IMG/VR virus record: IMGVR_UViG_3300024262_000199
Coordinates: 1 to 27,206 of that record
Length of the DNA: 27,206 bases
Source: a virus
Reading direction: 5' to 3' (one strand)
The translations under genes were made by a program, and so were the position numbers. Shown piece after piece: positions 2 to 25,344 of this stretch (position 1 is the first letter of the stretch; the number at the start of each line of letters is the position of its first letter). Under the pieces are notes generated by a model, which saw only the letters and a list, made by a program, of their open reading frames with translations, did not search any database and had not been told where the DNA came from.

Positions 2-211
2 AGAAAATCTAAGAGAGGTAAAGAAGTAATTCCTTACCAGTTAGGTAAAAAGACTATCTACCTAAAGAGAGATGAGATTCCTCATTTTGAATCAATGGCT
101 AGAGACGAACAAAGAAAGATGGTTAATAGATTTGAGGCAAAAGTTAAATCTGGCAAGATTGTTCCTGTTTATAAGCATGGAAAAATAATTGGTTACATAA
201 ACAAAAGATAA
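2..211 (+). CDS. Partial hypothetical basic protein (3' end)
   Basis: An open frame enters from the left edge and runs 69 codons to a TAA at 209-211; its start lies outside the window. The visible part is rich in Lys and Arg and ends with residues YINKR. I do not recognise the family. The stop overlaps the start of the next gene (TAATG), so it is probably the upstream member of the same small-gene operon that carries the co-chaperonin-like genes. No catalytic motif, signal peptide or membrane segment is visible. Confidence 0.7.
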   Translation, partial: RKSKRGKEVIPYQLGKKTIYLKRDEIPHFESMARDEQRKMVNRFEAKVKSGKIVPVYKHGKIIGYINKR

Positions 212-477
212 TGACTGAAGACGACACTAAAGGAGCTGACCAAATATCTAAACAAAAGATATGGGAGTTACCTATTTATGAAATAAAATATGTTGATCCA
301 ATTAAAGGAATGTCTTTTCGAGTAGGTCAGCATCATAGAGGTCATACTATAAATAGTATAATTCGAGATGTTATTGATGGGGAAGTTCTTTATTTAGTGT
401 TTGGAGAAAAAGATGGTGAGACAAAGCTTTTAAAATCAACTAGTGGAATTGCTGTTTACTTAACATACGAAGTTTGA
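211..477 (+). CDS. Hypothetical 88-residue protein
   Basis: The 88-residue ORF begins at the ATG that overlaps the stop of the upstream gene and ends in a TGA that overlaps the TTG start of the following gene, so it is very likely translationally coupled on both sides. The composition (charged N-terminus, then alternating hydrophobic residues such as VLYLVF and IAVYLTYEV) suggests a small beta-rich fold. No known motif, Cys pair or membrane helix is seen. It sits directly before the co-chaperonin-like genes, so a role next to them is possible, but nothing in the sequence shows it. Function unknown. Confidence 0.65.
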   Translation: MTEDDTKGADQISKQKIWELPIYEIKYVDPIKGMSFRVGQHHRGHTINSIIRDVIDGEVLYLVFGEKDGETKLLKSTSGIAVYLTYEV

Positions 478-1310
478 GTGTAAGACCTACATATTTAGTA
501 GTAGAGAAGTTAGTTAACTATAAAAATATAGTAACATCTCAAAATTACATTAATGAGTATCAGATATGTAAAGTTATTGATTGTCATCCAGACTCAGGAC
601 TTAATCCAAACGAAGAAATTCTGGTAGGAAATAAAATATTCTTTGATTCAGCTAAAGATATAGGAGAAGGAAGGTTCTTTATATTTCTTGAAGAAGTTTA
701 TGGAGTGCTCAGAAATGATACTATAGTTCCAATGGAGGACTTTGTTTATATTGAAACAGATAAAGATAGAAAGTCTATAATAAAGAAAGGTTCTGTAGAG
801 TTGTTTAATGATACTAGCTACAACCCTTTGGATAAAGATAACGTAGTTCAGGATGGAACGGTATTGTCAGTATGTACTAAAGCTAAAGATAGTTATTTTG
901 GATTTCCATTAAATGTCGATATAAAACCAGGAGACCATATTTATACTCATCATTTTCTTACTGATTCAGATAACGAGAGAAAGTTTAATGGTAAAACTTA
1001 TTATGAGATAAGGTATGAGAATTTATACTGCCGGATTTCAGATGGAAAGATAATAATGCTAAATGATTGGAATTTCGTTACTCCGGTAGTAGATGAAACA
1101 AAAATCTCTGAAACAGGAATAGTATTAGATTATAAGCAAAAAAATAAACTGAGAGTCGGTATTATAAACCATACTTGCCAATCATTAATAGAGAAAGGAT
1201 TGGAAGTTGGAGATATGGTATTTTTTAAACAAGGAAGAGAATATGAGATAGATGTAGAAGGAACTACATATTACAGAATACATACAAACGATATTATATA
1301 TAAGTTATGA
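474..1310 (+). CDS. Protein of three tandem GroES-like (Cpn10) modules
   Basis: The 278-residue protein repeats three times the C-terminal pattern of GroES/Cpn10 (hydrophobic-G-D-x-hydrophobic, a short turn, G-x-x-Y, then an acidic residue before a hydrophobic strand). Module 1 covers about residues 6-80 (VGNKIFF at 51-57, RFFIFLEEVYGVL at 67-79). Module 2 covers about 82-188 (KPGDHIY at 151-157, GKTYYEIRYENLY at 173-185). Module 3 covers about 190-278 (EVGDMVFF at 244-251, GTTYYRIHTNDI at 263-274). The family caps the GroEL ring. The start is TTG overlapping the previous stop (TTGA), because no ATG or GTG lies nearby in frame. The last codons overlap the canonical co-chaperonin gene by 4 bp. 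The module reading is inference from pattern; modules 1 and 2 are diverged and lack a clear mobile loop. Confidence 0.65.
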   Translation: MSVRPTYLVVEKLVNYKNIVTSQNYINEYQICKVIDCHPDSGLNPNEEILVGNKIFFDSAKDIGEGRFFIFLEEVYGVLRNDTIVPMEDFVYIETDKDRKSIIKKGSVELFNDTSYNPLDKDNVVQDGTVLSVCTKAKDSYFGFPLNVDIKPGDHIYTHHFLTDSDNERKFNGKTYYEIRYENLYCRISDGKIIMLNDWNFVTPVVDETKISETGIVLDYKQKNKLRVGIINHTCQSLIEKGLEVGDMVFFKQGREYEIDVEGTTYYRIHTNDIIYKL

Positions 1311-1567
1311 CAAAAAGAAAAGGACCACTTGGAACTATTTTGGAAGTAGAGCCATTTAAGAAAGAAACCGAGAAGAATGGGTTTGTTATTTCGGCAAATC
1401 AAGAATATATGCCAGAAAAAGGTAAAGTACTTAATCTTGGAAAAGGAGTATCTGGTATTGAAATAGGTGATGACATTCTATTTCAGAAAGGAGCATACTC
1501 TAAAGTTACTATAGAAGGAAAAGAAGTTTTATTAGTTGATGAATCTAAAGTTTATTATATACTTTAA
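1307..1567 (+). CDS. GroES-like co-chaperonin
   Basis: This 86-residue protein has the layout of a Cpn10/GroES subunit. It has an N-terminal strand (residues 9-15) and a charged, probably flexible stretch at about 17-38. That stretch contains NGFVIS, matching the GGIVL hydrophobic contact of the GroES mobile loop that binds GroEL. GKVLNLGKG follows, then the signature GDDILFQKG (54-62) and IEGKEVLLVDESKVYYIL at the C-terminus. The segment that forms the roof hairpin in E. coli GroES is very short here (residues 46-52). Known phage co-chaperonins such as T4 gp31 adapt host GroEL for folding the capsid protein, and this gene could do the same for the capsid protein encoded at 10174. It overlaps the upstream triple-module gene (ATGA). 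Family call fairly sure, capsid role inferred. Confidence 0.82.
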   Translation: MTKRKGPLGTILEVEPFKKETEKNGFVISANQEYMPEKGKVLNLGKGVSGIEIGDDILFQKGAYSKVTIEGKEVLLVDESKVYYIL

Positions 1568-1992: not shown

Positions 1993-2031
1993 CATTTAAT
2001 GATAGCCCACTTTCCGGAAGTAAAAAATAAT

Positions 2032-2039
2032 TATCTTTG
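2032..2039 (+). promoter_or_regulatory. Bacteroidota -7 promoter box TATCTTTG
   Basis: TATCTTTG fits the Bacteroidota -7 consensus TAnnTTTG exactly. It lies 13 bases before the ATG at 2053, which implies a very short leader and supports that start over the ATG at 1999. I see no TTTG at the usual -33 distance. Confidence 0.6.
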
Positions 2040-2052
2040 TATAAAAAAAGAT

Positions 2053-2316
2053 ATGTTAGGTAAAACAGCACAATACTACAGAGACAATCCAGAAGCAAGA
2101 AATAAAAAGAAAGCTTACGATACTAAACGTAACAAAACTGCTGCCTCAAAACTTTACAGAGCTAGACTAAACAAAGCTAATAGAGACAACCCTAATAGTG
2201 TAGTAGGCGATGGTAAAGATGTTAGCCATACAAAGAAAGGACTTAGGTTAAAGCCACAATCAAAAAACAGAGGATCTAAATCAGATTCTGCTGGAGATAA
2301 AAGAGCAAGAGGATAA
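2053..2316 (+). CDS. Small basic conserved phage protein (GDGKDVSHTK type)
   Basis: An 87-residue, very basic protein. It has an N-terminal helical part rich in Lys and Arg (YYRDNPEARNKKKAYD, KLYRARLNKANRDN), then GDGKDVSHTKKG, then a Ser/Lys/Arg tail (PQSKNRGSKSDSAGDKRARG). I recognise this layout from small uncharacterised proteins of many large phages, including Bacteroidota phages, but no function is established that I know of. The ATG at 2053 is preferred because a clean -7 box lies at 2032-2039; an in-frame ATG at 1999 would place the promoter inside the gene and overlaps the cassette edge. The high charge would suit nucleic-acid or virion association, which is inference only. Confidence 0.75.
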   Translation: MLGKTAQYYRDNPEARNKKKAYDTKRNKTAASKLYRARLNKANRDNPNSVVGDGKDVSHTKKGLRLKPQSKNRGSKSDSAGDKRARG

Positions 2317-2391: not shown

Positions 2392-3531
2392 ATGTCAAAA
2401 TTAATCTTAAACGACAATACATCAGGTGCTGAAATCACTATTGATGAATCAAACATATTAAAAGCTTATACGGTAAGCTCTGTAACAAATGTAGAATATC
2501 TACATGACTCTTATAAAAGAGTTGCTAAAGTATCTGAGGCTTTAGCTTCGGTAGTTGCAGCTTCAAAAGTATTAATTCCTGTAACACTAACAAGTGGAAC
2601 AGTTATTTACATAAATAAAGATAGAGCAAGAAACATCTACAATGAATCTAGTACTGCTAGAATCATTTATGATGGAGGTGGAGCAGGATTAGAAAGAATA
2701 GTTTCTTCTGATGTTGCTAACGATATTCAAATTGCTATTATAGCTAAAAATGGAGATTTATCTTACGCTATTGATTCATTTACTGCAGCACCAAAGGTTG
2801 TTGTTTTAGATACAGCAATAGGAGATGTTGAGGCAAACTTCCCAATTGGTAGAGTATTTACTGTATTTGGAGAAGATGATGCTAACGATAATATCTACAC
2901 TACTGTTTCAGCAGCATGGGATGGAACAAACACTAAAATTACAGTAGCAGAAACTACAACATTAAATGCAGCAGCAACAGGATATGTTTGGTTAGAGGTA
3001 GAAGATTCTTCTTCTGCAACTTCTTACTCACCTGGAACTACTGGAACGGATGTTACTGCAGTACACTACTCAGCAGATGGTAAACACTTCGTAACTAAAT
3101 TAACATTAACAGATGTTTCATATACTATTGCAGGAGCAGCAAATGAAGCTGTTGGAGCATTAATATATACATTCCCTGCAGGAGTACATTCACACAAAGT
3201 AACAAATATGAATGTTGCTTTACAAGGTGGAGGAACAGTTGATGCAGATACACCAAACATCGGAATAGGATCTGTTATTGGAACAGGAGCTGTAGCTACT
3301 TTAGGTGGTACAACAACTTTTAAAGACTATATAACTGGTCAGTTAGCTACAGATTGTAGTGGTACAGCTACAGTCGAGATGAGTTTTGCTACTGCTGGAT
3401 ATGGCGAGGGTATTTCATTAAACCAAGCTGGAGATGTAAAAGCAGTACATTTAAATATTGCAGACTTATGGGCTGGAGCTGATACAGTATTAGCAACAGG
3501 AACTGTAACTCTTGAGTGGACAATAATCTAA
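2392..3531 (+). CDS. Putative virion protein (head fibre or decoration candidate)
   Basis: The 379-residue protein is rich in Ala, Thr, Val and Gly with alternating strand-forming segments throughout. The N-terminal domain (about 1-120) has the pattern VLIPVTLTSGTVIYINKDRARNIY followed by ARIIYDGG, which I associate with structural proteins of Bacteroidota phages. The middle (about 135-205) resembles an Ig-like insert. The C-terminal part (about 220-379, ending KAVHLNIADLWAGADT and TVTLEWTII) looks like a jelly-roll sandwich. The gene stands alone between its own promoter (2356-2363) and a strong terminator (3552-3583), which suggests high independent expression as expected of an abundant capsid decoration or head-fibre protein. 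The exact role is not shown by the sequence. Confidence 0.7.
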   Translation: MSKLILNDNTSGAEITIDESNILKAYTVSSVTNVEYLHDSYKRVAKVSEALASVVAASKVLIPVTLTSGTVIYINKDRARNIYNESSTARIIYDGGGAGLERIVSSDVANDIQIAIIAKNGDLSYAIDSFTAAPKVVVLDTAIGDVEANFPIGRVFTVFGEDDANDNIYTTVSAAWDGTNTKITVAETTTLNAAATGYVWLEVEDSSSATSYSPGTTGTDVTAVHYSADGKHFVTKLTLTDVSYTIAGAANEAVGALIYTFPAGVHSHKVTNMNVALQGGGTVDADTPNIGIGSVIGTGAVATLGGTTTFKDYITGQLATDCSGTATVEMSFATAGYGEGISLNQAGDVKAVHLNIADLWAGADTVLATGTVTLEWTII

Positions 3532-3624: not shown

Positions 3625-4032
3625 ATGGAACGTCCTAGTAAATTAACTGGAGAACAAGGAGAATACATACAATTCCTTGAAAAGAAGTTAGAGGTATTTA
3701 ACTCAAAGACTACAAAAGTAGAATCATATTTAACAGTAAAGAAAATAGTAGATGATACAAATAAACTTGTAAGAAATGGGGTATCTATTAATCATTCAGA
3801 AACAGGAGAGTTTTTAAAAAAGGTAGATATAATTAGCGAGGAATCTTTAATGTCTAAAGATGAAAAGACATTTGATAGGCTATCTAAGTTTTTAGATAAA
3901 ATTGAAGAGTATAATGGTATGCTTGATAGATTTAATGAGCAACTTGATCCAGAAGACATTAAATCGGTAGAAAAAGAATTACTAAAAGGAACAGATTCAG
4001 TTGAAGGACGAATTTTCGGAAGAAAGAAATAA
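3625..4032 (+). CDS. Short helical protein upstream of TerL (small-terminase candidate)
   Basis: The 135-residue protein is charged and appears almost wholly helical (EYIQFLEKKLEVFNS, TFDRLSKFLDKIEEYNGML, DIKSVEKELLKG), with likely coiled-coil pairing and a basic end (IFGRKK). Its stop overlaps the ATG of the large terminase (TAATG), so the two are coupled. Small terminase subunits are usually short, helical, oligomeric and encoded just before TerL, so position and shape make this a candidate. I see no recognisable DNA-binding helix-turn-helix and cannot confirm it. The start is chosen because it follows the shared leader at the same 4-base distance as the scaffold gene. Confidence 0.6.
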   Translation: MERPSKLTGEQGEYIQFLEKKLEVFNSKTTKVESYLTVKKIVDDTNKLVRNGVSINHSETGEFLKKVDIISEESLMSKDEKTFDRLSKFLDKIEEYNGMLDRFNEQLDPEDIKSVEKELLKGTDSVEGRIFGRKK

Positions 4033-6209
4033 TGGGAAAAGGATTAGGGCAAAGATATGTGTATAAAGATTTCGAGAGGGAGAGAGAGATAGATGAATTT
4101 AAGTTCACTCTTCCAGAACCTCCTCGATTTGATGAGATAGATGGCTATGAACTATCTAAAGAAAAACAGAAGTTTACACCTCCGGATAAAACCTATGTAA
4201 AAGAGCTTAGTTATAAAATATCAAATGATATTCTAAGAACCAAAGAAGAAAGGGATTTTATAGATTTACAATGGGATAGAAGAGAGCAAGGCTATTGGTT
4301 TTATAATAACGGATATTTAGAGTACATTACAGGACTTCATTATTATTATTTGACGGCATGGAATATTGTTCGTGTTGAGGAGTATGAAAAAAGAGATGGC
4401 ACTCTAGGGAAAAGAAAGATTTCTGGGCTTCCGAAATTCACAGATTCAGATAGAGATTATTTTTACATATGGGATGATGTAGTCAATGATAGCAACTGTT
4501 TTGGGCTTATTCATATAACTAATAGAAGGGATGGAAAAACTTTTAGAAGCACAGCAACAGTAAATGAAATAATATCAAGGTCTCCAGATGCTATTGGTGG
4601 AATACAATCAAAAACAGATACTGATGGCTCAAAAATATTTAAGAAGTTAGTAAAATCATGGAAAGCTTTACCTGAATATTTCAAGCCAGTAGATATTGGA
4701 GAGTCAGATCCAGGAAAAAGATTAGAGTATAGAAATCCAAAAAAGAGAACAAGTAAAACACAGAAGAAAGAATATTCAGAAGTTTTAGATTCAGAGATAA
4801 ACTTTGGTAATGCTAAAGAGGAGTATTATGATGGAGATGGATTAGCTATATTATTTCATGATGAGATTGGTAAAACAGAACCTAGAGTAGCTAATGTATC
4901 TGAGAGATGGGATATTTGTAGAGAGTGTCTTGCTGATGGAGCTGACGTAACAGGAAAAGGTCTTTTAACCACCACAGTAGAGGACATGGAGAAAAAAGGT
5001 GGTAAGTATTGTAAAAAGATTTGGGATGAATCAGACACAGACTCAGAAGCTTATAGAAAAACCAAACAGACAGTTTCCGGTCTTAAAAGATATTTTAAAC
5101 CAGCTTATTATGGATTAAGAGGTTCTGATAGCTCAGATGAAGATGATATAACACCAGAATTTATAAATGAGTATGGATATTCAGATATTGAAGCAGCAAT
5201 AGCATATTTAGTTAAAGTAGAAAAGAATTTATCAGGAGAGAAGCTAATATCAAGAAGAAGAAAGTACCCTAGAAATATTAAGGATGCTTTTATGATTTCT
5301 GGTAAAAGTGATGTATTTCCGACATTTAAAATAATAGAACAAGAAGAGCATAATGAAACACTTAATGAAAGTATTGTCAGGAGGGGAGATTTTGTATGGG
5401 CTGATAAAGGGGCACATAAAGTTGAATTTTTTGACAACCCAAAAGGATTCTTTGAATTGGCGTGGCAACCACATCCAGAAGAACAAAACAAATTTATCTA
5501 TGATGGTAGAGGATTCCCAATGCCGGGCAATGTTTCTGATGGTGTAATTGGAGTCGATCCATTTGACCATAAAGAAACAGTATCTAATAAAAAATCTGAT
5601 GCAGCAGCTTCTTACTTTAAAAGATTTGATATTAATAAACCATTAACCAGTAATGGTTTTGTTGCTCATTACGTAGGCAGAAGAACAAATCCAGATGATT
5701 TTTATGAAGATATGATAATGGCTGCTGTTTATTTCGGAGTACAGATATTATGTGAGAATCAAAAACCTGGACTTTTAAATCACATGAATAGAGAAGGTTA
5801 TAAAAATTACATATTTAAGACACAACAAAGCGACTACACTCAATCTACAAGTAAGAAGTATGTTGAAGGTGTTTCTATGTCTGGAGCATTAGTAAGACAA
5901 CAATCAATAAATAATCTTGTTACTTACATCTATAAGTTTATAGGAAAAATAGATCCTAAAATACAAATGTCAGAATTTGGTTTTTCAGAGGACGAAGTAA
6001 TTCAAGACTTATATGGCCATTGTCCATTTCCTACTTTATTACAAGATTGGAAAGATTTTGATGCTAATAACTGGACAGTTTCTGATGAGACTGTATCATC
6101 TATGATTGCAGTTTTAGGCGTTACTCCCGTAAAAAACAAAGTAAGAAACATAGAAGAAGATGCTAGAGACCTTAAAATAGAATCATTCTTTAAAGTTCGT
6201 AAACTATGA
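4032..6209 (+). CDS. terL: Terminase large subunit
   Basis: This 725-residue protein is the DNA-packaging motor: an ATPase that translocates DNA into the prohead through the portal, plus a nuclease that cuts genome units. A degenerate Walker A appears as TNRRDGKTFRS (163-173, Lys169). Walker B is LAILFHDE (271-278, Asp277 and Glu278). The coupling motif region is LLTTTVED (311-318). The RNase H-fold nuclease begins at VIGVDPFD (505-512, Asp509), with a second acidic site in LCENQ (573-577, Glu575) and a probable third in VSDETVSS (about Asp685). The length and the RRDGKT-type Walker A resemble crAss-like phage terminases. It overlaps the preceding small helical gene and is followed after 42 bp by a new promoter and the portal gene. 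Confidence 0.95.
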   Translation: MGKGLGQRYVYKDFEREREIDEFKFTLPEPPRFDEIDGYELSKEKQKFTPPDKTYVKELSYKISNDILRTKEERDFIDLQWDRREQGYWFYNNGYLEYITGLHYYYLTAWNIVRVEEYEKRDGTLGKRKISGLPKFTDSDRDYFYIWDDVVNDSNCFGLIHITNRRDGKTFRSTATVNEIISRSPDAIGGIQSKTDTDGSKIFKKLVKSWKALPEYFKPVDIGESDPGKRLEYRNPKKRTSKTQKKEYSEVLDSEINFGNAKEEYYDGDGLAILFHDEIGKTEPRVANVSERWDICRECLADGADVTGKGLLTTTVEDMEKKGGKYCKKIWDESDTDSEAYRKTKQTVSGLKRYFKPAYYGLRGSDSSDEDDITPEFINEYGYSDIEAAIAYLVKVEKNLSGEKLISRRRKYPRNIKDAFMISGKSDVFPTFKIIEQEEHNETLNESIVRRGDFVWADKGAHKVEFFDNPKGFFELAWQPHPEEQNKFIYDGRGFPMPGNVSDGVIGVDPFDHKETVSNKKSDAAASYFKRFDINKPLTSNGFVAHYVGRRTNPDDFYEDMIMAAVYFGVQILCENQKPGLLNHMNREGYKNYIFKTQQSDYTQSTSKKYVEGVSMSGALVRQQSINNLVTYIYKFIGKIDPKIQMSEFGFSEDEVIQDLYGHCPFPTLLQDWKDFDANNWTVSDETVSSMIAVLGVTPVKNKVRNIEEDARDLKIESFFKVRKL

Positions 6210-6251: not shown

Positions 6252-8651
6252 ATGGCAGATTACACTCAATCATCAATAGAGGCAAAAGTAAAAGAGAACC
6301 CATTTCCGGTAGAATCTCTTGACTCAAAAGAGAAATCAGAAGATGGCTATGGTAAAAAAATAGCTAAGTTTATATACTATAGAGGAATAGCTAGAGATAT
6401 ATCTACAAACAGAAGAACTATAGCTATAGAGAATAGAGATTATGCTAACAATAGAAATGATATAAATAAGTATAAGCCGTTATTAGATGCTGATTTAGAT
6501 AACAATGGAGATACGTCTTATATGACTATTGACTGGAGTAATCAACATCCAGGAAAGAAGTTTGCTGATACAGTAATTGGGGACATGATTAATCAAGATC
6601 ATAAAATCCAATTCAACGCTATTGATAAAAACTCTAAAGCCAAAGTATCTAAAGTTAGAGATGATTTTTATGGTAAAATTGTAAGACAAAGAGATATTCA
6701 AGAAATGGAAGCTGCTTCAGGATTAGTAGTTGAGGATAGAGGAGACTTTGTTCCAACATCTAAAGAAGAAGTTGATATTTATATGGATATGAATTTCAAG
6801 CAAGCTATAGAGATAGGAATGGAGAGTATTGTTGATTTTGAATTATATAATAATGCTTGGGATAAAAAATTAAAGAAAAGAGTTTGTAGAGATTTTGTAG
6901 AGAATAATATTGGATCAGTAAGATTAGGTTTTGATAGAAATAATCAAATCTATTTAAGATATGTAGATGCTCCTGTAGATTTATATACATCATATACAGA
7001 TGAACCTGATTATGATGATGTAGAATACGAAGCAGAGAGAAGATTTATGTCTATTCGTGAACTTAAAAGAAAAGACTTAAATAATAAGATTACTCAAGAG
7101 CAATGGTTTAAAATTGCTAAGTCAGCATCAAATAAGAATGGTAATGGAGCATGGAAGTTTGGAGATTCTTATTCAACTTATGCTTCTAGTGAGTATGGAG
7201 ATTATTCTTTTGATGATTATAGATTTATAGTTTTAGATTTTATCTATTACACAATAGATAGACTTACATACGCTGAAAAGCAAGATAAGTATGGTAATAA
7301 CCATTTAGAGAAAAAAGCTGCTGGATTTGAATTAAAAGAAGGTTCTAAATACAAGGATATTGTAAGTACTGAAATGGAGATGTCTTATGAAGGGTTTTAT
7401 GTAGTAGATTCAGATATTATTGTTGGTTACGGAAAAAGCAAGAACATAATGAGACCTCAAACTGAGGCAGGGCTTACCCCAAGACTTTTACACAGATACA
7501 TTATATTTCAACCAAACCTTAGAGGAGGAACTAGTAAATCTATAATTGAGGTTATGAAGCCTAATTTAGATACTATACAACTACTTATTTTAAAGAAAAG
7601 ACACTTAATAGCAGAGATGAATCCTTCTGGTGTTGCTGTAGATGTTACAGGAATTACAGATGTAATGGCAGCATTAAAGGAAACTGACCCTATGAAGATT
7701 ATAAAACTCTATAAACAAAAGGGTATCTTATTCTTTAGTAGGACTGATGTTAATGGAGACCCTGCAAATGGGTTACCAATACAAGAGATTAATAATCCAT
7801 TCGCTGAAAACCTTATAGCTTTAGACCAATCTATAATGGCTGAAGTTGAGCAAATAAGACAAAATACAGGAATTAACGATGTAAGAGATGGTAGTTCACC
7901 AGATAAAGATGCGTTAGTCGGTATTGAAAAAATGAGATTACTTGCTAGTAACAATACTACTAGAGAATTATATCAAGGTTATTTAGATGGTGTATTAGCT
8001 CCAATAGGTGCTGTTATGGCAAGAATGATTCAATATAAAGTTGAATACGGTAATGGATTAAAGGAGTATGATAATATAATTGGTGAACTAGGAGCTAAAG
8101 CTGTAGAGTTTGCTAAAGATATTACAATGACTCAATTAGGGATTAAGATTGAGGCACTTCCTACAGATGAGCAAGTACAAACATTACTTGATATGCTTAA
8201 CATATCATTACAACAAGGAGAAATCAGACCAGAGGACGTTCTTGAGATTAAGAGAATGATGAATATTAAGAAAGCAGAGAGACTTCTTATTTACAGAAGA
8301 AAACAATATGCTGAACAAAAAATGTTAGAGTTCCAACAAAAAGAACAGATAACAGCAGAAAGAGAATCGTCAAGTGCTATGGCAGCAGCAGAAGCTCAGA
8401 AAGTTAAAGATGAATCTAAACGTGTTAATGAAGAGCAAAAACTTCAAACAGAATATACGTTAAAGATGCAGTTAAGTGATAGAGATACTGAAAATAAAAT
8501 CAAGCAGATAAATCAAGAAGGACATTGGAAAGAAGTTCTTTTGGAAAAACAAATAAAAGAAGGAGGAGAATCTAAAGAAGGAATTGACAAACCTAAGATA
8601 CTTCAAGATCCATTTGGTGCTACACAAAGAACTGCTGATGTTACTCCTTAA
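6252..8651 (+). CDS. Portal protein
   Basis: The 799-residue protein forms the dodecameric ring at one capsid vertex through which DNA is packaged and ejected. Evidence is its place right after TerL, its size (crAss-like portals are near 800 residues) and its layout: an N-terminal region of mixed helices; a portal-like central part ending in RQNTGINDVRDG and DALVGIEKMRLLASNNTTRELYQGYL (about 534-580), which resembles the region before the wing and barrel helices in other portals; and a long charged helical C-terminus (about 676-775, rich in Gln, Glu and Lys) likely to form a coiled coil or barrel. The 3' end overlaps a reverse-strand regulator by 11 bp. The call is strong from order and pattern, although no short signature motif proves it. 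Confidence 0.88.
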   Translation: MADYTQSSIEAKVKENPFPVESLDSKEKSEDGYGKKIAKFIYYRGIARDISTNRRTIAIENRDYANNRNDINKYKPLLDADLDNNGDTSYMTIDWSNQHPGKKFADTVIGDMINQDHKIQFNAIDKNSKAKVSKVRDDFYGKIVRQRDIQEMEAASGLVVEDRGDFVPTSKEEVDIYMDMNFKQAIEIGMESIVDFELYNNAWDKKLKKRVCRDFVENNIGSVRLGFDRNNQIYLRYVDAPVDLYTSYTDEPDYDDVEYEAERRFMSIRELKRKDLNNKITQEQWFKIAKSASNKNGNGAWKFGDSYSTYASSEYGDYSFDDYRFIVLDFIYYTIDRLTYAEKQDKYGNNHLEKKAAGFELKEGSKYKDIVSTEMEMSYEGFYVVDSDIIVGYGKSKNIMRPQTEAGLTPRLLHRYIIFQPNLRGGTSKSIIEVMKPNLDTIQLLILKKRHLIAEMNPSGVAVDVTGITDVMAALKETDPMKIIKLYKQKGILFFSRTDVNGDPANGLPIQEINNPFAENLIALDQSIMAEVEQIRQNTGINDVRDGSSPDKDALVGIEKMRLLASNNTTRELYQGYLDGVLAPIGAVMARMIQYKVEYGNGLKEYDNIIGELGAKAVEFAKDITMTQLGIKIEALPTDEQVQTLLDMLNISLQQGEIRPEDVLEIKRMMNIKKAERLLIYRRKQYAEQKMLEFQQKEQITAERESSSAMAAAEAQKVKDESKRVNEEQKLQTEYTLKMQLSDRDTENKIKQINQEGHWKEVLLEKQIKEGGESKEGIDKPKILQDPFGATQRTADVTP

Positions 8652-8865
8652 TAACTAAGGAGTCAATAGTTACTTTAAAATATTCAGATACTTTAAGGAG
8701 AGTTAATACACCAGGATTATAGGTGTAGTCATTTTCCATTCTACTAACTGCCTCATAACAAAGATCCACTTCTTTAGCTAAATCATTAGTTAATAATAAT
8801 GTTCCGTCTTCTTTAATAGAGTTCAATCTAAGGGTTCTAATTTTCTTACAATTTATCTTTGGCAT
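8641..8865 (-). CDS. XRE-family helix-turn-helix regulator
   Basis: This 74-residue protein is a single XRE/Cro-C1 type DNA-binding domain. It has an N-terminal helix (CKKIRTLRL, 6-13), helix 2 (LTNDLAKEVD, 25-34), a recognition helix region (CYEAVSRMEND, 36-46) and the closing helices (LTLLKVSEYFKVTIDSLV, 54-71) usual for the family. It is the only reverse-strand gene in the window, sits between the portal and scaffold genes and ends 11 bp inside the portal 3' end. Its control region is shared head to head with the scaffold gene and holds overlapping palindromes (8872-8894) close to its expected transcription start, which suggests autorepression and possibly control of the divergent late unit. 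Targets are not shown by the sequence. Confidence 0.85.
   Translation of the reverse strand: MPKINCKKIRTLRLNSIKEDGTLLLTNDLAKEVDLCYEAVSRMENDYTYNPGVLTLLKVSEYFKVTIDSLVIKE
8643..8663. other. Perfect hairpin across two convergent stop codons
   Basis: ACTCCTTA (8643-8650) and TAAGGAGT (8656-8663) form an 8-bp perfect stem with a 5-base loop. It spans the portal stop (8649-8651) and abuts the XRE stop (8641-8643). There is no T-tract on either strand, so at most it is a weak bidirectional terminator or transcript end stabiliser. Confidence 0.55.
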
Positions 8866-10173: not shown

Positions 10174-11586
10174 ATGGGACTAGCTTACAACACAGGGGCC
10201 TTAAATTCGGCAACTAACCACAACTTCGTATCGTACTACGAAGCACATGAACCAGATATTCAAGAAGAATTGGTTCAAAGATATATGAACACTATTATAG
10301 GGTTCTTAGATTTTACGGATGCTAAAAAAGCAACCAACGCAGCAGAGTTCTCTCGTTTTGAGAAAGATAGAATTATGCCAAAAATTAAAGCTACTTCAGC
10401 AGGAGCAGGAGCAGGAGCACAAGCAACATTTACTGTAGCAGCAGCTTCTAAAGTTGCAATACCATCAGCAGCACCTTATGATACTTCAGCTACACCAGAT
10501 GGTTTAACAATGCCAATCAGATTAAATGATTTAATTATGATTAAGCCTGCATCAGGAGTTGTTTCATCAGGAAGTTACATTAAATGTATCGTTGATTCGG
10601 TAACTAACAATACTCAATTTAAAGCTACACCAATTAAAACTGGAGAATCAGTTCCAGCAATCGGTACTGCTGATGAGATAGTTATTTATGGTAATGCTCA
10701 TGGTGAGGGTTCTGTATTTAATGCTCCAATGAGTACTACAGCTACTAAATTTACTGAGAAGCTACAAATAATCAAACATAGATTAAGAGTAACTGGTACT
10801 GAAGGATTAGTTAAAGAATGGTATAAAGATACTAGTGGTAACAAAAGATTCCAAGTTAAAGGAGAAGGTGATTCATACGCACAATTCTTAAACTGGATGG
10901 ATATGAACTTGTTAGTAGGTGAAGAATTAACTAACACTACTGTTGCAAGTGCATTTCAAGCTACTGGAACTCCAATCGCTTTAACAAGAGGTCTTTTACA
11001 CGCTATCTTAGATGCTGGTAACGTATTGAACTATTCGTCTATTTCAGGATTATTAATCGCTGATATGTACGATTACAATATTATTATCGATGCTAACAAA
11101 GCTCAAAAGAAAAATCTTTGGATGGTAGGTATTGCTTTAGATCAACAAATGGATGTTGAATTAGGTGATAGATTTAAAGATGGAGCAATTAGCTATGGTA
11201 GCTTTACAATGGAACAAGAAAAAGCAGTAAACTTAGCTTTCCAAAAAGCTAGAATCGGTGTTTATGAGTACGACAAAAGATGTATGGAAGCATTTAACGA
11301 TGTTCAAACTCTTGGTGCTGATGGATTCGGTTACAAGTACGAAGGATTTACTGTGCCTGCAGGAGCTACTAAAATTGCTGGTGGTTCTGAAAAAGGAATG
11401 ATGGCTGCATCTTTAAGAAAAAGATACTTAGCTGGAGAAGGTAAATCAAGAGAGATGGTAATTAAGTATTACGATGGTGTATCTACTGGAGATGACGGAG
11501 ACGACATCGAAGAAGTAAGATATATGGCTCACGTTGCTTTAGAAGCACAAGCTTTAAACCAATTTGGTTACATGAAGCGAGTATAA
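10174..11586 (+). CDS. Major capsid protein
   Basis: The 470-residue protein is assigned as the HK97-fold coat subunit. It follows the scaffold-like gene, is followed at once by a strong terminator (11599-11637) as expected of a very abundant product, and has about the size of crAss-like coat proteins. The N-terminus (GLAYNTGALNSATNHNFVSYYEAHEPDIQEELVQRYMNT) looks like the N-arm and first helix. Residues about 75-180 carry an Ala/Gly/Thr-rich inserted domain. The C-terminal half has long mixed helices and strands (NWMDMNLLVGEELTNTT, VALEAQALNQFGY). Codon choice is regular and Ala/Gly-rich like other late genes here. It is the probable client of the GroES-like proteins encoded at the left end. 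Fold assignment is inference from order and shape. Confidence 0.83.
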   Translation: MGLAYNTGALNSATNHNFVSYYEAHEPDIQEELVQRYMNTIIGFLDFTDAKKATNAAEFSRFEKDRIMPKIKATSAGAGAGAQATFTVAAASKVAIPSAAPYDTSATPDGLTMPIRLNDLIMIKPASGVVSSGSYIKCIVDSVTNNTQFKATPIKTGESVPAIGTADEIVIYGNAHGEGSVFNAPMSTTATKFTEKLQIIKHRLRVTGTEGLVKEWYKDTSGNKRFQVKGEGDSYAQFLNWMDMNLLVGEELTNTTVASAFQATGTPIALTRGLLHAILDAGNVLNYSSISGLLIADMYDYNIIIDANKAQKKNLWMVGIALDQQMDVELGDRFKDGAISYGSFTMEQEKAVNLAFQKARIGVYEYDKRCMEAFNDVQTLGADGFGYKYEGFTVPAGATKIAGGSEKGMMAASLRKRYLAGEGKSREMVIKYYDGVSTGDDGDDIEEVRYMAHVALEAQALNQFGYMKRV

Positions 11587-22900: not shown

Positions 22901-23605
22901 TGGGCTGATGCAAAGAGGGGATCAATATTAAGATTAGGTGGTGATGGTATTACTCAAATTTCAGAATACAAGATGCACAATTACTGGACTGATAAACTAC
23001 AAGAGATAGATGGTAGTATTGGTGGGTATAAAATATACGGTGTTTATGATGTTAGATTTGATGAGTATATACTTCATTTAGTAGGAGGTAATATATCTGA
23101 AACTATAGCATATAGTGAGACTAAAAATAGATGGGTAACATTTTATTCTTATGCTCCTGATTTTATGGTATCAAATAGAACTGGATTAATTACATTTAAA
23201 AATGGAGAGTTGTTTAATCATAATACAAATAGTGTTTATAATAACTTCTATGGAGTACAACATAGTACTGAGTTAGAATTTGTATCTAACATTGAACCAG
23301 GTGCTATTAAAATGTATAATAGTTTGTATGTAGAATCATCTAATGTATTTGAAATGCCAGAAGCTACAAATCAATACGGACAGAAGACATCATTAATAAC
23401 GGATGATTTTGAAGATGTAGAAGGAGTATGGAAGGCTGCATTTCTTAAAGATGAGAATACACCGAATGTAAATCTTCCATTAATAGAAGGAGATACTATT
23501 AGATGTAATTCATTAACTATTAAATTAAGAAATAATGATACAGATTTTGTTAAAATATTCTCTGTAGGAGTAAATGTAGAGTTGTCTGAATTAACTAATA
23601 GATGA
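19943..23605 (+). CDS. Tail tubular B / muzzle-like tail protein
   Basis: The 1220-residue protein is the largest in the window. Its start (KKGFLGGLDSDTEDRLLPNGDYRYSLNIRASKSDGANEGSIENTKGN) is typical of the nozzle proteins of podovirus tails (P22 gp10, T7 gp12, the crAss-like muzzle), which form the distal tube. Repeated strand pairs follow (IGSYDDIINSKVYYFVW, ISQNIVVLDGKIYWVNGQPYKINIE) that suggest a beta-propeller. Fibronectin-like parts come next (GKLFQFRYKFVYEDNEESAWSPIS; DVEVNHSPPSWATHYQFVYTGNQ). The C-terminal part has further propeller-like strings (MKYWADAKRGSILRLGGDGI, VRFDEYILHL). Its ATGA end overlaps the membrane protein gene. Assignment is from pattern and gene order; confidence in a tail-tube role is good. 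Confidence 0.78.
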   Translation: MAIEKKGFLGGLDSDTEDRLLPNGDYRYSLNIRASKSDGANEGSIENTKGNSKVSYQFNLGGTFKTIGSYDDIINSKVYYFVWASSSAHLLLEYDVTNNIINKVLESPLLNLDVNNPIISQNIVVLDGKIYWVNGQPYKINIERAKTGGYPNPIREENITAIVPPPILSPDCIWGSTDGTISGSIKTNNVRGKLFQFRYKFVYEDNEESAWSPISKTSLPINEGRYRPFGYYDSTINNFITVTVGVGNEIVKRVKIAFREGNTGDFYLAKDLDKNNLTLGVADYDFNFYNNEVYTPLDNNGNQGMRLYDWIPLLSNTQSLIDGNKITYGGITENYDPVNIDVTVSPIYGAVPETQPVAVGSGLSYQIVEVQQLSIDPSIYQNIQGNNLTPSNVGNVLGGSVYWGKRAHLHINTYTSAAGRGFSDTVMIEPSFGGLNGHNGLWLTTEHSLEAVIYNDSTGVVPEGNKFIVSVSASWRDFRTHTWEYKTFVFQEISVAGDDCIAVLNRLRNQINNLSDYNTGGAIIKLSSSSATQWSRGYSTNLSNARCIYIQVEGYIDPSQIQSISNYTSLYYYMNPLPALYSASVSIKSYASWTSNIEKTLKMGARHGIGLVYYDKYNRSTLANTSDDTDFYVKFPTERGIQANYITDVVELDVEVNHSPPSWATHYQFVYTGNQTVENLQTGEGYKGFIQARLDNVKTSATINGALESRLSNISDYSNGVPELISIAYSFTKGDRIRFIKDANNDYYNKYIDVEIISYDDTSKLLTFKNPDVYISGAVVAEIYTPKKNSEEDYYYEIGEVYQINNGYHTGNTQDQSPTSPAKLRLTDIGDVYLRYRELPMKTQVEDYNYSDFYDSDSWDKGRVYIVDKNIKQIYRPTTIRYSEAFIPETNINGLSQFNDFSFEAYDHKYGDIKLMYSEDKSLLVFQQLKVGSVGVNQNTLYSNDGATVGTVRNETKVLSDIRYYAGEFGIGNNPESFSVYGNMKYWADAKRGSILRLGGDGITQISEYKMHNYWTDKLQEIDGSIGGYKIYGVYDVRFDEYILHLVGGNISETIAYSETKNRWVTFYSYAPDFMVSNRTGLITFKNGELFNHNTNSVYNNFYGVQHSTELEFVSNIEPGAIKMYNSLYVESSNVFEMPEATNQYGQKTSLITDDFEDVEGVWKAAFLKDENTPNVNLPLIEGDTIRCNSLTIKLRNNDTDFVKIFSVGVNVELSELTNR

Positions 23606-23916
23606 TAGTAGATATTCTTACAATAGTAGGCTTAACAATAATTATAACTACTTCAAGGATGCTTAAACCATTTAGAGAATTTGTATCTACTAAATCTATA
23701 TTCTTTGGTGAGTTATTATCTTGTTCTTTATGTACTGGGTTTTGGGTGGGGATATTCTTTTATCTACTTCCGGAAAATGTAATTATAGATATTGAAATCA
23801 TTAATATTAAAATTAATTTCAATATATTTGTCAAAACAATAATTTCTTATGCTGCTTTAGGTAGTATATTTTCAGAAGTTATGTACTTAATAATTAATCG
23901 ATTAAAAATTAAATAA
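23602..23916 (+). CDS. Small membrane protein, DUF1360-like
   Basis: The 104-residue protein has an N-terminal hydrophobic helix (about 2-18), then FFGELLSCSLCTGFWVGIFFYLL (about 34-56), a strand-like IDIEIINIKINF part and a third hydrophobic helix (about 77-99). The motif ELLSC-x2-CxGFWVG resembles the C-x2-C-x-GFW-x-G pattern of DUF1360 membrane proteins found in many phages, whose role is not established as far as I know. The start overlaps the stop of the tail-tube gene. Two or three membrane spans with the Cys pair near the membrane are predicted by eye. A holin is possible in principle but nothing specific supports it. Confidence 0.65.
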   Translation: MIVDILTIVGLTIIITTSRMLKPFREFVSTKSIFFGELLSCSLCTGFWVGIFFYLLPENVIIDIEIINIKINFNIFVKTIISYAALGSIFSEVMYLIINRLKIK

Positions 23917-23925
23917 CTTAAAGTC

Positions 23926-24228
23926 ATGTCTAAAAAAGCTAAAGTATATTGCGATAAATGTGGTTCTCCAAGAGGATTAGAAAGTGTTGCTATTAAACAA
24001 TTAGAATCTTGTGAGTTTTGTGGTAAATCAAAACTTTGTAATGTTATCAAGGAAAAGAAAAAGGTAACTAAAGAAGAAGTTGTAACGAAAGAGGTTAAGC
24101 CAAATAAAACGGAAGTTAAGATTCCGGAATTAAAAGAAGAAACACCAAAGAAAAAGGCTGCTTCCAAATCAACAGCTAAAAAGACTCCAGTAAAAAAGAC
24201 AACTAAGAAAACTTCTAAAAAGAAGTAA
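23926..24228 (+). CDS. Zinc-ribbon protein with histone-like lysine tail
   Basis: The 100-residue protein has two halves. Residues 1-40 hold YCDKC (Cys9, Cys12) and CEFC (Cys29, Cys32) with another Cys at 38, a likely zinc ribbon (CxxC-x16-CxxC). Residues 43-100 are a low-complexity tail of Lys, Thr, Ala, Ser and Pro (KKKAASKSTAKKTPVKK, TTKKTSKKK) like the C-terminal tails of histone H1 and bacterial histone-like proteins. The tail should bind nucleic acid by charge. It ends in TAATG overlapping the sulfotransferase-like gene. Whether it is packaged with DNA, binds RNA polymerase or has another role cannot be told from the sequence. Confidence 0.65.
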   Translation: MSKKAKVYCDKCGSPRGLESVAIKQLESCEFCGKSKLCNVIKEKKKVTKEEVVTKEVKPNKTEVKIPELKEETPKKKAASKSTAKKTPVKKTTKKTSKKK

Positions 24229-24833
24229 TGATAGTAGTTTCAGGAGCAGCAAGAACAGGGACGAGTCTGATGATACAGACTCTTCTTTGTTTAGGCTATA
24301 AAACACCAGCAAAGAAGTTTCTTCCAGAACATGATGGAGTAGAGCAGTATAATAAGAATGGATTTTATGAATTATATCATGAAGTCATTAATGGTATTCG
24401 TCATAATAAATACAAAGGACAAGTAGTAAAGATATTTCCATCTTGCTTATGTCTTACCCCAAAAAAGTATGTATCTAAAATAATTATTTGTAACAGAAAT
24501 AGGGCAGATGCGATTAGAAGTTACTTACCAGTAAAGGAAGTTTTAGGTGGTCCATTAAGCCCAAAGGAAGCTTATGATGGTTCATATTTATTTTTAAATG
24601 ATTACATTAATGGAATTAATCATATTTTCATTAACTTTGAGGATATTATTAATAATCCAAGAAAGGTTATTTTAGAACTTTGTGATTTTCTGGAAATAGA
24701 ACCTAGTGAAGAACAAATTATAAATGCAATTAAAAACGTAAATCATGGCACTACTGGCAGCAGGAATAATAGGAGGTGGTTCAGCTTTATTAAAGACTGG
24801 ATTAGGTTTCTATCAAAAAAGGCAAGGAGATAA
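24228..24833 (+). CDS. Sulfotransferase-fold protein
   Basis: The 201-residue protein starts MIVVSGAARTGTSLMIQTLLCLGY. The loop SGAARTGTSLM (5-15) is the PAPS 5'-phosphosulfate-binding P-loop of sulfotransferases (usually GxxRSGTS). IIICNRNRADAIRSYL (85-100) fits the 3'-phosphate-binding motif (RNPxDxxxS-like), and INFEDIINNPRKVILELCDFLEIE (135-158) is the usual C-terminal helix region. It would transfer a sulfo group from PAPS to a sugar or other acceptor; the acceptor is unknown. At about 200 residues it is shorter than typical 250-300-residue enzymes. The last 29 codons (from residue 173) overlap the next gene in another frame and encode an aromatic and basic tail (RRWFSFIKDWIRFLSKKARR). 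It is unusual inside a virion-structure module. Confidence 0.7.
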   Translation: MIVVSGAARTGTSLMIQTLLCLGYKTPAKKFLPEHDGVEQYNKNGFYELYHEVINGIRHNKYKGQVVKIFPSCLCLTPKKYVSKIIICNRNRADAIRSYLPVKEVLGGPLSPKEAYDGSYLFLNDYINGINHIFINFEDIINNPRKVILELCDFLEIEPSEEQIINAIKNVNHGTTGSRNNRRWFSFIKDWIRFLSKKARR

Positions 24834-25344
24834 AGCTAGAAATAGTTTAGTTCAACCAGAATATAAAATTCCAGATGAGTTATATGCTAACTTATCAGAT
24901 GCTGAGAAGAGACAAGTAGAGGGATTACCTGCTGAACAAAAAGCAGATTTTGTTAGGAATGTAGAACGAGGTAGATCTACTTCATTAAAAGCAGCAGCAG
25001 ATAGAAAAGGTGGATTATTAGGTATTCAAGAATCAGCAAGAAATGAAACTGATGCTTATAACAATTTAGTTCAAATAGATGCAGCAGCTAGAAAACAATC
25101 TCAATTAGAGAAAGAGGCAGCAATAAGAAATGCTAGAGGAGATATTGCTAATGCTAAAAATATGAAGTTTGGTATTAAAGACCAAAACTACAACAATCAA
25201 TTAAATGCAGCTAATTCAGATATTGGAGCAGGTATGCAGAATATATTTGGTGGGGTTTCTCAATTAGGTACTACTGCTTTAGGTATAGCTGAAATGAAAT
25301 ACAATCATAAAGATGAAGATGAAGATGAAGGAGATTCTAACTAG
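24745..25344 (+). CDS. Putative internal virion (cargo-like) protein
   Basis: The 199-residue protein begins ALLAAGIIGGGSALLKTGLGFYQKRQGDKARN, an Ala/Gly-rich membrane-active or amphipathic start seen in internal ejection proteins of podoviruses. It continues with helical, Ala-, Lys- and Gln-rich segments (AEKRQVEGLPAEQKADFVRNVERG, DAAARKQSQLEKEAAIRNARGD) and ends in an acidic run (HKDEDEDEGDSN) encoded by GATGAA repeats. Its start lies 89 bp inside the sulfotransferase-like gene; I keep this ATG because the Gly-rich N-terminus is the characteristic part. Proteins in this place in crAss-like phages are carried in the tail or capsid and ejected. Function inferred from composition and position. 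Confidence 0.65.
   Translation: MALLAAGIIGGGSALLKTGLGFYQKRQGDKARNSLVQPEYKIPDELYANLSDAEKRQVEGLPAEQKADFVRNVERGRSTSLKAAADRKGGLLGIQESARNETDAYNNLVQIDAAARKQSQLEKEAAIRNARGDIANAKNMKFGIKDQNYNNQLNAANSDIGAGMQNIFGGVSQLGTTALGIAEMKYNHKDEDEDEGDSN

Follow-up and report, generated by a model that had tools for sequence, protein, structure and literature searches.

We have found, at the left end of a 27,206-base linear virus fragment (IMG/VR record IMGVR_UViG_3300024262_000199, the whole of which we call the window), a gene for a 278-aa triple Cpn10-like co-chaperonin (474..1310, + strand, TTG start) joined to a gene for an 86-aa single Cpn10 of the GroES type (1307..1567, + strand, ATG start). The identity of both products as co-chaperonins is well supported, and so is the triple Cpn10 reading of the longer one, the first of its three modules being the least certain. 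Multi-domain phage Cpn10 proteins are already in the databases (annotated as chaperonin cpn10/GroES, PHROG_13932, e.g., in Cellulophaga phi38:1 and the Flavobacterium elemo phages); a triple with an adjacent single is new, an unusual version of a viral folding kit that is known but has gone unstudied. Our searches of the open-access literature turned up no account of phage Cpn10 modules in tandem.

Three genes are chained here by stop/start overlaps (211..477, 474..1310 and 1307..1567). The TGA stop of the first overlaps the TTG start of the 278-aa frame (TTGA), and an ATGA joins the latter to the 86-aa frame. A previous sequence-only reading had taken this four-base overlap as a sign of coordinated synthesis; both reading frames and the overlap are indeed present, and translational coupling is supported.

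The 278-aa protein matched Pfam Cpn10 (PF00166, curated cut-off 21.1 bits) with E=3.2e-12 and 46.7 bits over two stretches (the best at residues 193-275) and PHROG_13932 with E=6.2e-11 (residues 145-277), to which NCBIfam Cpn10 matches can be added; phmmer against the PDB found nothing. The AlphaFold2 model, calculated with 33 relatives as input, none of them covering module 1, had a mean pLDDT of 73.5 and displayed three successive Cpn10-like strand sets, starting at residues 7, 90 and 199. Confidence was low (pLDDT below 50) at the expected mobile loops, i.e., residues 20-26, 101-105 and 108-122. The top PDB match of the model was 7ekq_R, an algal chloroplast Cpn20 that is itself a head-to-tail double Cpn10 (Foldseek E=5e-6; VIA-align Z 10.8 over 173 residues). 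Searched by thirds against the Pfam profile, the protein gave a clear match for the last (33.1 bits), a score below the cut-off for the middle one (15.9 bits, E=0.013) and no match for the first. Module 3 (residues 198-278; 1065..1307, + strand) is thus unmistakable; its fold compares with GroES at Z up to 8.8, and it carries TGIVL (residues 214-218; 1113..1127, + strand) at the position of the GroES mobile loop. Module 2 (residues 87-197; 732..1064, + strand) is firmly placed as a Cpn10 by homology, as the counterpart of the first module in the phage double Cpn10 family. Its candidate mobile loop (residues 95-125; 756..848, + strand) includes two of the low-confidence segments, and the first module of the phage doubles likewise has a loop of ca. 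31 residues.

Module 1 (residues 1-86; 474..731, + strand) is an additional N-terminal Cpn10-like module for which no counterpart was found in any of the relatives read. In the whole-chain model its first strands run from 7 to 16 and from 29 to 37, and the loop between them (residues 17-28; 522..557, + strand) may be a short mobile loop (KNIVTS). We built a custom profile from the Cpn10 modules of phage doubles and singles; module 1 was kept out of it. Modules 3 and 2 and the 86-aa protein, all three part of its training set, scored 60.2, 40.8 and 38.7 bits, respectively, and module 1 scored 8.0 bits over residues 15-81. This value was equalled by 4 of 1956 shuffles and reached by none of ca. 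1,218 non-Cpn10 ORFs of 75-110 aa (taken from 1,228 ORFs of related contigs; best score 6.5). With hhalign, module 1 against the family alignments did not rise above a control ORF, and for this reason we consider the sequence evidence weak, although above chance. Of the five AlphaFold2 models calculated for module 1 by itself, with its own sequence as the sole input, one was confident. The best 12 VIA-align rows were all GroES, Cpn10 or gp31 entries (Z 6.5-4.6, a Z below 8 not being conclusive by itself), and Foldseek gave weak, non-significant matches. The stretch 474..731 has coding-like codon usage, in frame, and the reading frame is open from 444. Taken with the weak sequence signal, the predicted structure makes a Cpn10 fold probable for module 1, and we hold it very likely that the protein has three modules. 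The three Cpn10 modules of the sequence-only reading are supported, the second and third firmly and the first as probable.

As had been claimed for it, the 86-aa product is an ordinary one-module Cpn10/GroES (PF00166 E=1.3e-7, 32 bits against the cut-off of 21.1). It matched PHROG_3188 (E=4.6e-9) and, less well, PHROG_931 (E=6e-5), and is 35% identical to the single Cpn10 of the nearest relative. Its mobile-loop motif NGFVIS (residues 24-29; 1376..1393, + strand) aligns with GGLLLS and GGIILP of related singles. Judged by sequence, the hydrophobic triplet of the mobile loop is present in TGIVL of module 3 and in NGFVIS of the single, the loops of modules 1 and 2 being less clear.

The source of the window is a crAss-like phage of Bacteroidota. 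The locus is anchored by the terminase large subunit (TerL; 4032..6209, + strand; PHROG_6681 E=6.7e-81), followed by a crAss-type structural block with portal (6252-8651, PHROG_6547) and major capsid (10174-11586, PHROG_13704) genes; ring and tail genes are also present, the CrAss_Ring_2 match being weak (21.7 bits, below its cut-off of 27). At the 5' side, the 88-aa ORF (211..477, + strand) corresponds by position and homology to the small ORF found before the double Cpn10 in relatives, with 26-34% identity in alignment to positions 3715-3960 of the nearest relative (L195) and 632-859 of another (L198). We considered whether this upstream ORF of the relatives could be a further Cpn10 module and rejected it: it belongs to a coiled-coil-like ORF family with weak scores over a short stretch. 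Between the Cpn10 genes and the terminase there are also a basic 105-aa protein (1999..2316, + strand; PHROG_6437 E=1e-20, function not assigned), a 379-aa virion-like beta protein (2392..3531, + strand) and, directly 5' of the terminase, a 135-aa ORF (3625..4032, + strand) that by gene order is the positional counterpart of L195 5924-6322. The N-terminus of the 379-aa protein resembles, by eye, L195 4917..5573 at the same place in the locus; a scan with this ORF found no relatives. Farther along, a 74-aa HTH_3 ORF of the Cro/C1 type lies antisense where the portal gene ends (8641..8865, - strand), the sole minus-strand gene with family support among those tested. A DUF1360 membrane-like protein, slightly above the cut-off, is found directly 3' of a 1220-aa tail protein (23602..23916, + strand), and a Sulfotransferase-domain protein (24228..24833, + strand; PF00685 E=6e-9) lies within the structural region, its 3' end overlapping ORF 24745..25344 in a different frame.

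Relatives were gathered by tblastn, degenerate scans and HMMs. The double Cpn10 family (PHROG_13932, ca. 180-205 aa) was found at about 130 related loci, with 90 distinct sequences, and its place at the loci inspected is just 5' of TerL. In Callevirus it is the gene immediately before TerL and the two overlap, and the same happens in elemo, Panino and phi38:1. The view that phage co-chaperonins are single-domain proteins is therefore wrong for this lineage, where a double Cpn10 upstream of the terminase is the rule; it is also among the three core proteins of the stricter set of Pervagoviridae, alongside structural proteins (PMC8776804). The doubles (Cellulophaga phi38:1 gp089, Calle, Flavobacterium elemoA gp33, Maribacter Panino, Cellulophaga phi18:3) align full length to modules 2-3, lie like the window gene upstream of TerL and behind a small ORF (phi18:3 excepted) and are accompanied by a single Cpn10. 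They differ in having two modules, and in that the single is usually elsewhere, beside GroEL. At 278 aa and with an extra N-terminal module, the window protein exceeds the ca. 200 aa of the family while keeping its position, between the homologue of the small ORF and the TerL at 4032. It was the only triple among the loci read, all 139 other PHROG_13932 matches being at most 240 aa from stop to stop. A BFVD viral model of 304 aa (A0A516L046; E=2e-9, TM 0.59 normalised by query) may, on its predicted structure, be a second triple. Two queries (P0001 and P0002), each used alone, retrieved no relative from viral contigs, and a conserved-pattern scan of genome contigs retrieved none either. The long loop of the first module carries a hydrophobic motif in 74 of the 90 doubles, and in the second (C-terminal) module the loop is short and lacks the hydrophobic triplet, so not every module need dock.

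The nearest relative, L195 (IMGVR_UViG_3300009103_000105), has, in this order, the small ORF, the double, two frames of 94 and 218 aa, the single Cpn10, a frame of 132 aa and TerL. It shares with the window the small upstream ORF and the presence of double and single in one terminase operon, with 37% identity in modules 2-3 and 39% in TerL. It differs in that the Cpn10 is a double, without module 1, and the single lies ca. 1.1 kb downstream. The adjacency of the pair, which the sequence-only reading proposed to look for in related phages, is thus not conserved, the single being usually beside the phage GroEL; only L195 also has both in one operon. We regard the L195 layout as ancestral. Its double begins 11 bases past the end of the small ORF, exactly where the window carries module 1, and for this reason the triple is best read as a double with an inserted N-terminal module: it would have arisen by addition of such a module to the ancestral double Cpn10 of the lineage.

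Phage GroEL was present in 20 of 30 related records, and a separate single Cpn10 was detected with a profile of singles in 18 of them, always on the same strand as GroEL and at most ca. 0.3 kb downstream (positions compared by eye). Near-duplicates are numerous among the IMG/VR records, and the counts therefore do not stand for independent events. Among records of at least 45 kb both genes were found in 11/11, the single in nine by the singles profile and in the other two (phi38:1 and Calle) by PF00166, near GroEL. A single and a double, one of each, occur in all five of the named isolates, and GroEL in four of them. The exception is phi18:3 (L176, NC_021794.1), in which GroEL was not found and which presumably uses that of its host; it belongs to Pachyviridae, so the pair of single and double is not limited to one phage family, extending to at least two. 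In the relatives that have them, GroEL and the single lie ca. 6 kb upstream of the double, which sits in the packaging module. Neither the window nor the L195 contig, both of them fragments, yielded a GroEL, and the position that it has in relatives would fall beyond the left end of the window. The isolated phage elemoA (L168, NC_055852.1) has the complete kit (GroEL gp46, GroES gp47, double Cpn10 gp33) and would be the best experimental model, with phi18:3 as a useful contrast for testing the lid.

We lean towards an explanation in which the 278-aa and 86-aa genes encode the lid of a chaperonin used by the phage. Seven modules are needed for a ring on GroEL. Doubles by themselves can only add up to an even number, and 2+2+2+1 with one single would give seven; the window set would reach it as 3+3+1 or, alternatively, as 3+4x1. 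Two triples and one single would co-assemble into a seven-module ring that caps GroEL through mobile loops, the GroEL being either phage-encoded outside the fragment or that of the host, and the capped chamber would fold abundant virion proteins, e.g., capsid or portal. By its length such a 2:1 complex would have an estimated mass of about 74 kDa. Co-assembly, stoichiometry, GroEL partner and substrates are all inferred. The arithmetic and the co-occurrence of single and double are our reasons to prefer a mixed lid, and the earlier suggestion of one is plausible. There is a natural case of the 2+2+2+1 kind: Chlamydomonas chloroplast Cpn20/23 and Cpn10 form mixed seven-module rings (PMC5780408). 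The stricter version, with a fixed 2:1 ratio in a 3+3+1 lid on the virus's own GroEL and 2+2+2+1 in the lineage at large, like chloroplast Cpn20/Cpn10, seems possible but rather doubtful.

Less probable than the mixed lid, in our judgement, is a co-chaperonin role in which the two proteins do not share a ring. The triple could build a ring of six or nine modules by itself, or else serve as a substrate-specific lid for a virion protein while the single acts as general GroES. T4 gp31, a specific lid for the virion protein gp23, would be an analogy for the latter. The usual place of the single beside GroEL means that it could be a separate general lid, and the ca. 6 kb to the double in the packaging module suggests separate expression. 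Besides, artificial six- and eight-module concatamers also work with GroEL in vitro (PMC5780408), so a lid need not have exactly seven modules. However, the window and L195 have both genes within the terminase operon, the window with the ATGA overlap, and double and single occur together in every well-covered record, which speaks against separate roles. It is improbable that the protein with several Cpn10 modules serves in head or terminase assembly, as a repurposed Cpn10 barrel that has lost GroEL binding. Its position directly upstream of TerL is fixed, with overlapping genes in phi38:1, Calle and the elemo phages, it is listed with structural proteins in the Pervagoviridae stricter core set (PMC8776804), and the C-terminal loop of the doubles is short; but the hydrophobic motif in the long first-module loop of most doubles, TGIVL in module 3 of the window and the constant company of single Cpn10 and GroEL all speak against this.

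An improbable reading too, by a similar measure, is that only two modules are real, residues 1-86 being an unrelated beta domain or translation starting at ATG 732 (residue 87), which would leave an ordinary double. Module 1 has no Pfam match and Met87 is exactly where the doubles begin, but the upstream codons are open and coding-like, the TTG shares bases with the preceding stop codon, the way genes of a compact operon do, and both the predicted fold and the profile score of module 1 point to Cpn10. Finally, we give very little credit to a cap for the host ClpP protease instead of GroEL, like the algal Cpn11/20/23 cap. In its favour, the structure closest to the model, from 7ekq, is the Cpn20 chain of a ClpP complex; however, this may just reflect that it is a solved double Cpn10, and phage GroEL genes accompany the family.

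Natural lids in which the order of modules is fixed covalently would take the seven-fold symmetry from the GroEL cage, and each module could then perform a job of its own. The rule of double plus single with its exception of triple plus single gives a testable prediction on ring parity. Bacteroidota phages seem to carry a whole private kit of GroEL, GroES and multi-Cpn10, for which we found no study in the literature searched.

Compared with known systems, T4 gp31 and the RB49 type share with the window a phage-encoded Cpn10 fold, to which the window single has its weak PHROG_931 match, but they are single-module homoheptamers that use host GroEL; the triple is not of this type and the 86-aa single is closer to the GroES of PHROG_3188. 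Phage EL is a GroEL-only phage. The phage-encoded GroEL-GroES systems of elemo and phi38:1 come from the same lineage, with GroEL and single GroES together, and differ from the 27-kb window, in which GroEL was not found. The chloroplast Cpn20/Cpn21/Cpn23 proteins likewise have tandem Cpn10 modules in one chain and work with a single Cpn10 in mixed seven-module rings, but they are plastid-targeted proteins of two head-to-tail modules and have no close sequence relation to this phage protein of three, the likeness being one of fold (to 7ekq_R). A phage lid of fixed ratio would, if true, be a viral counterpart of the lid that Cpn20 and Cpn10 make in chloroplasts.
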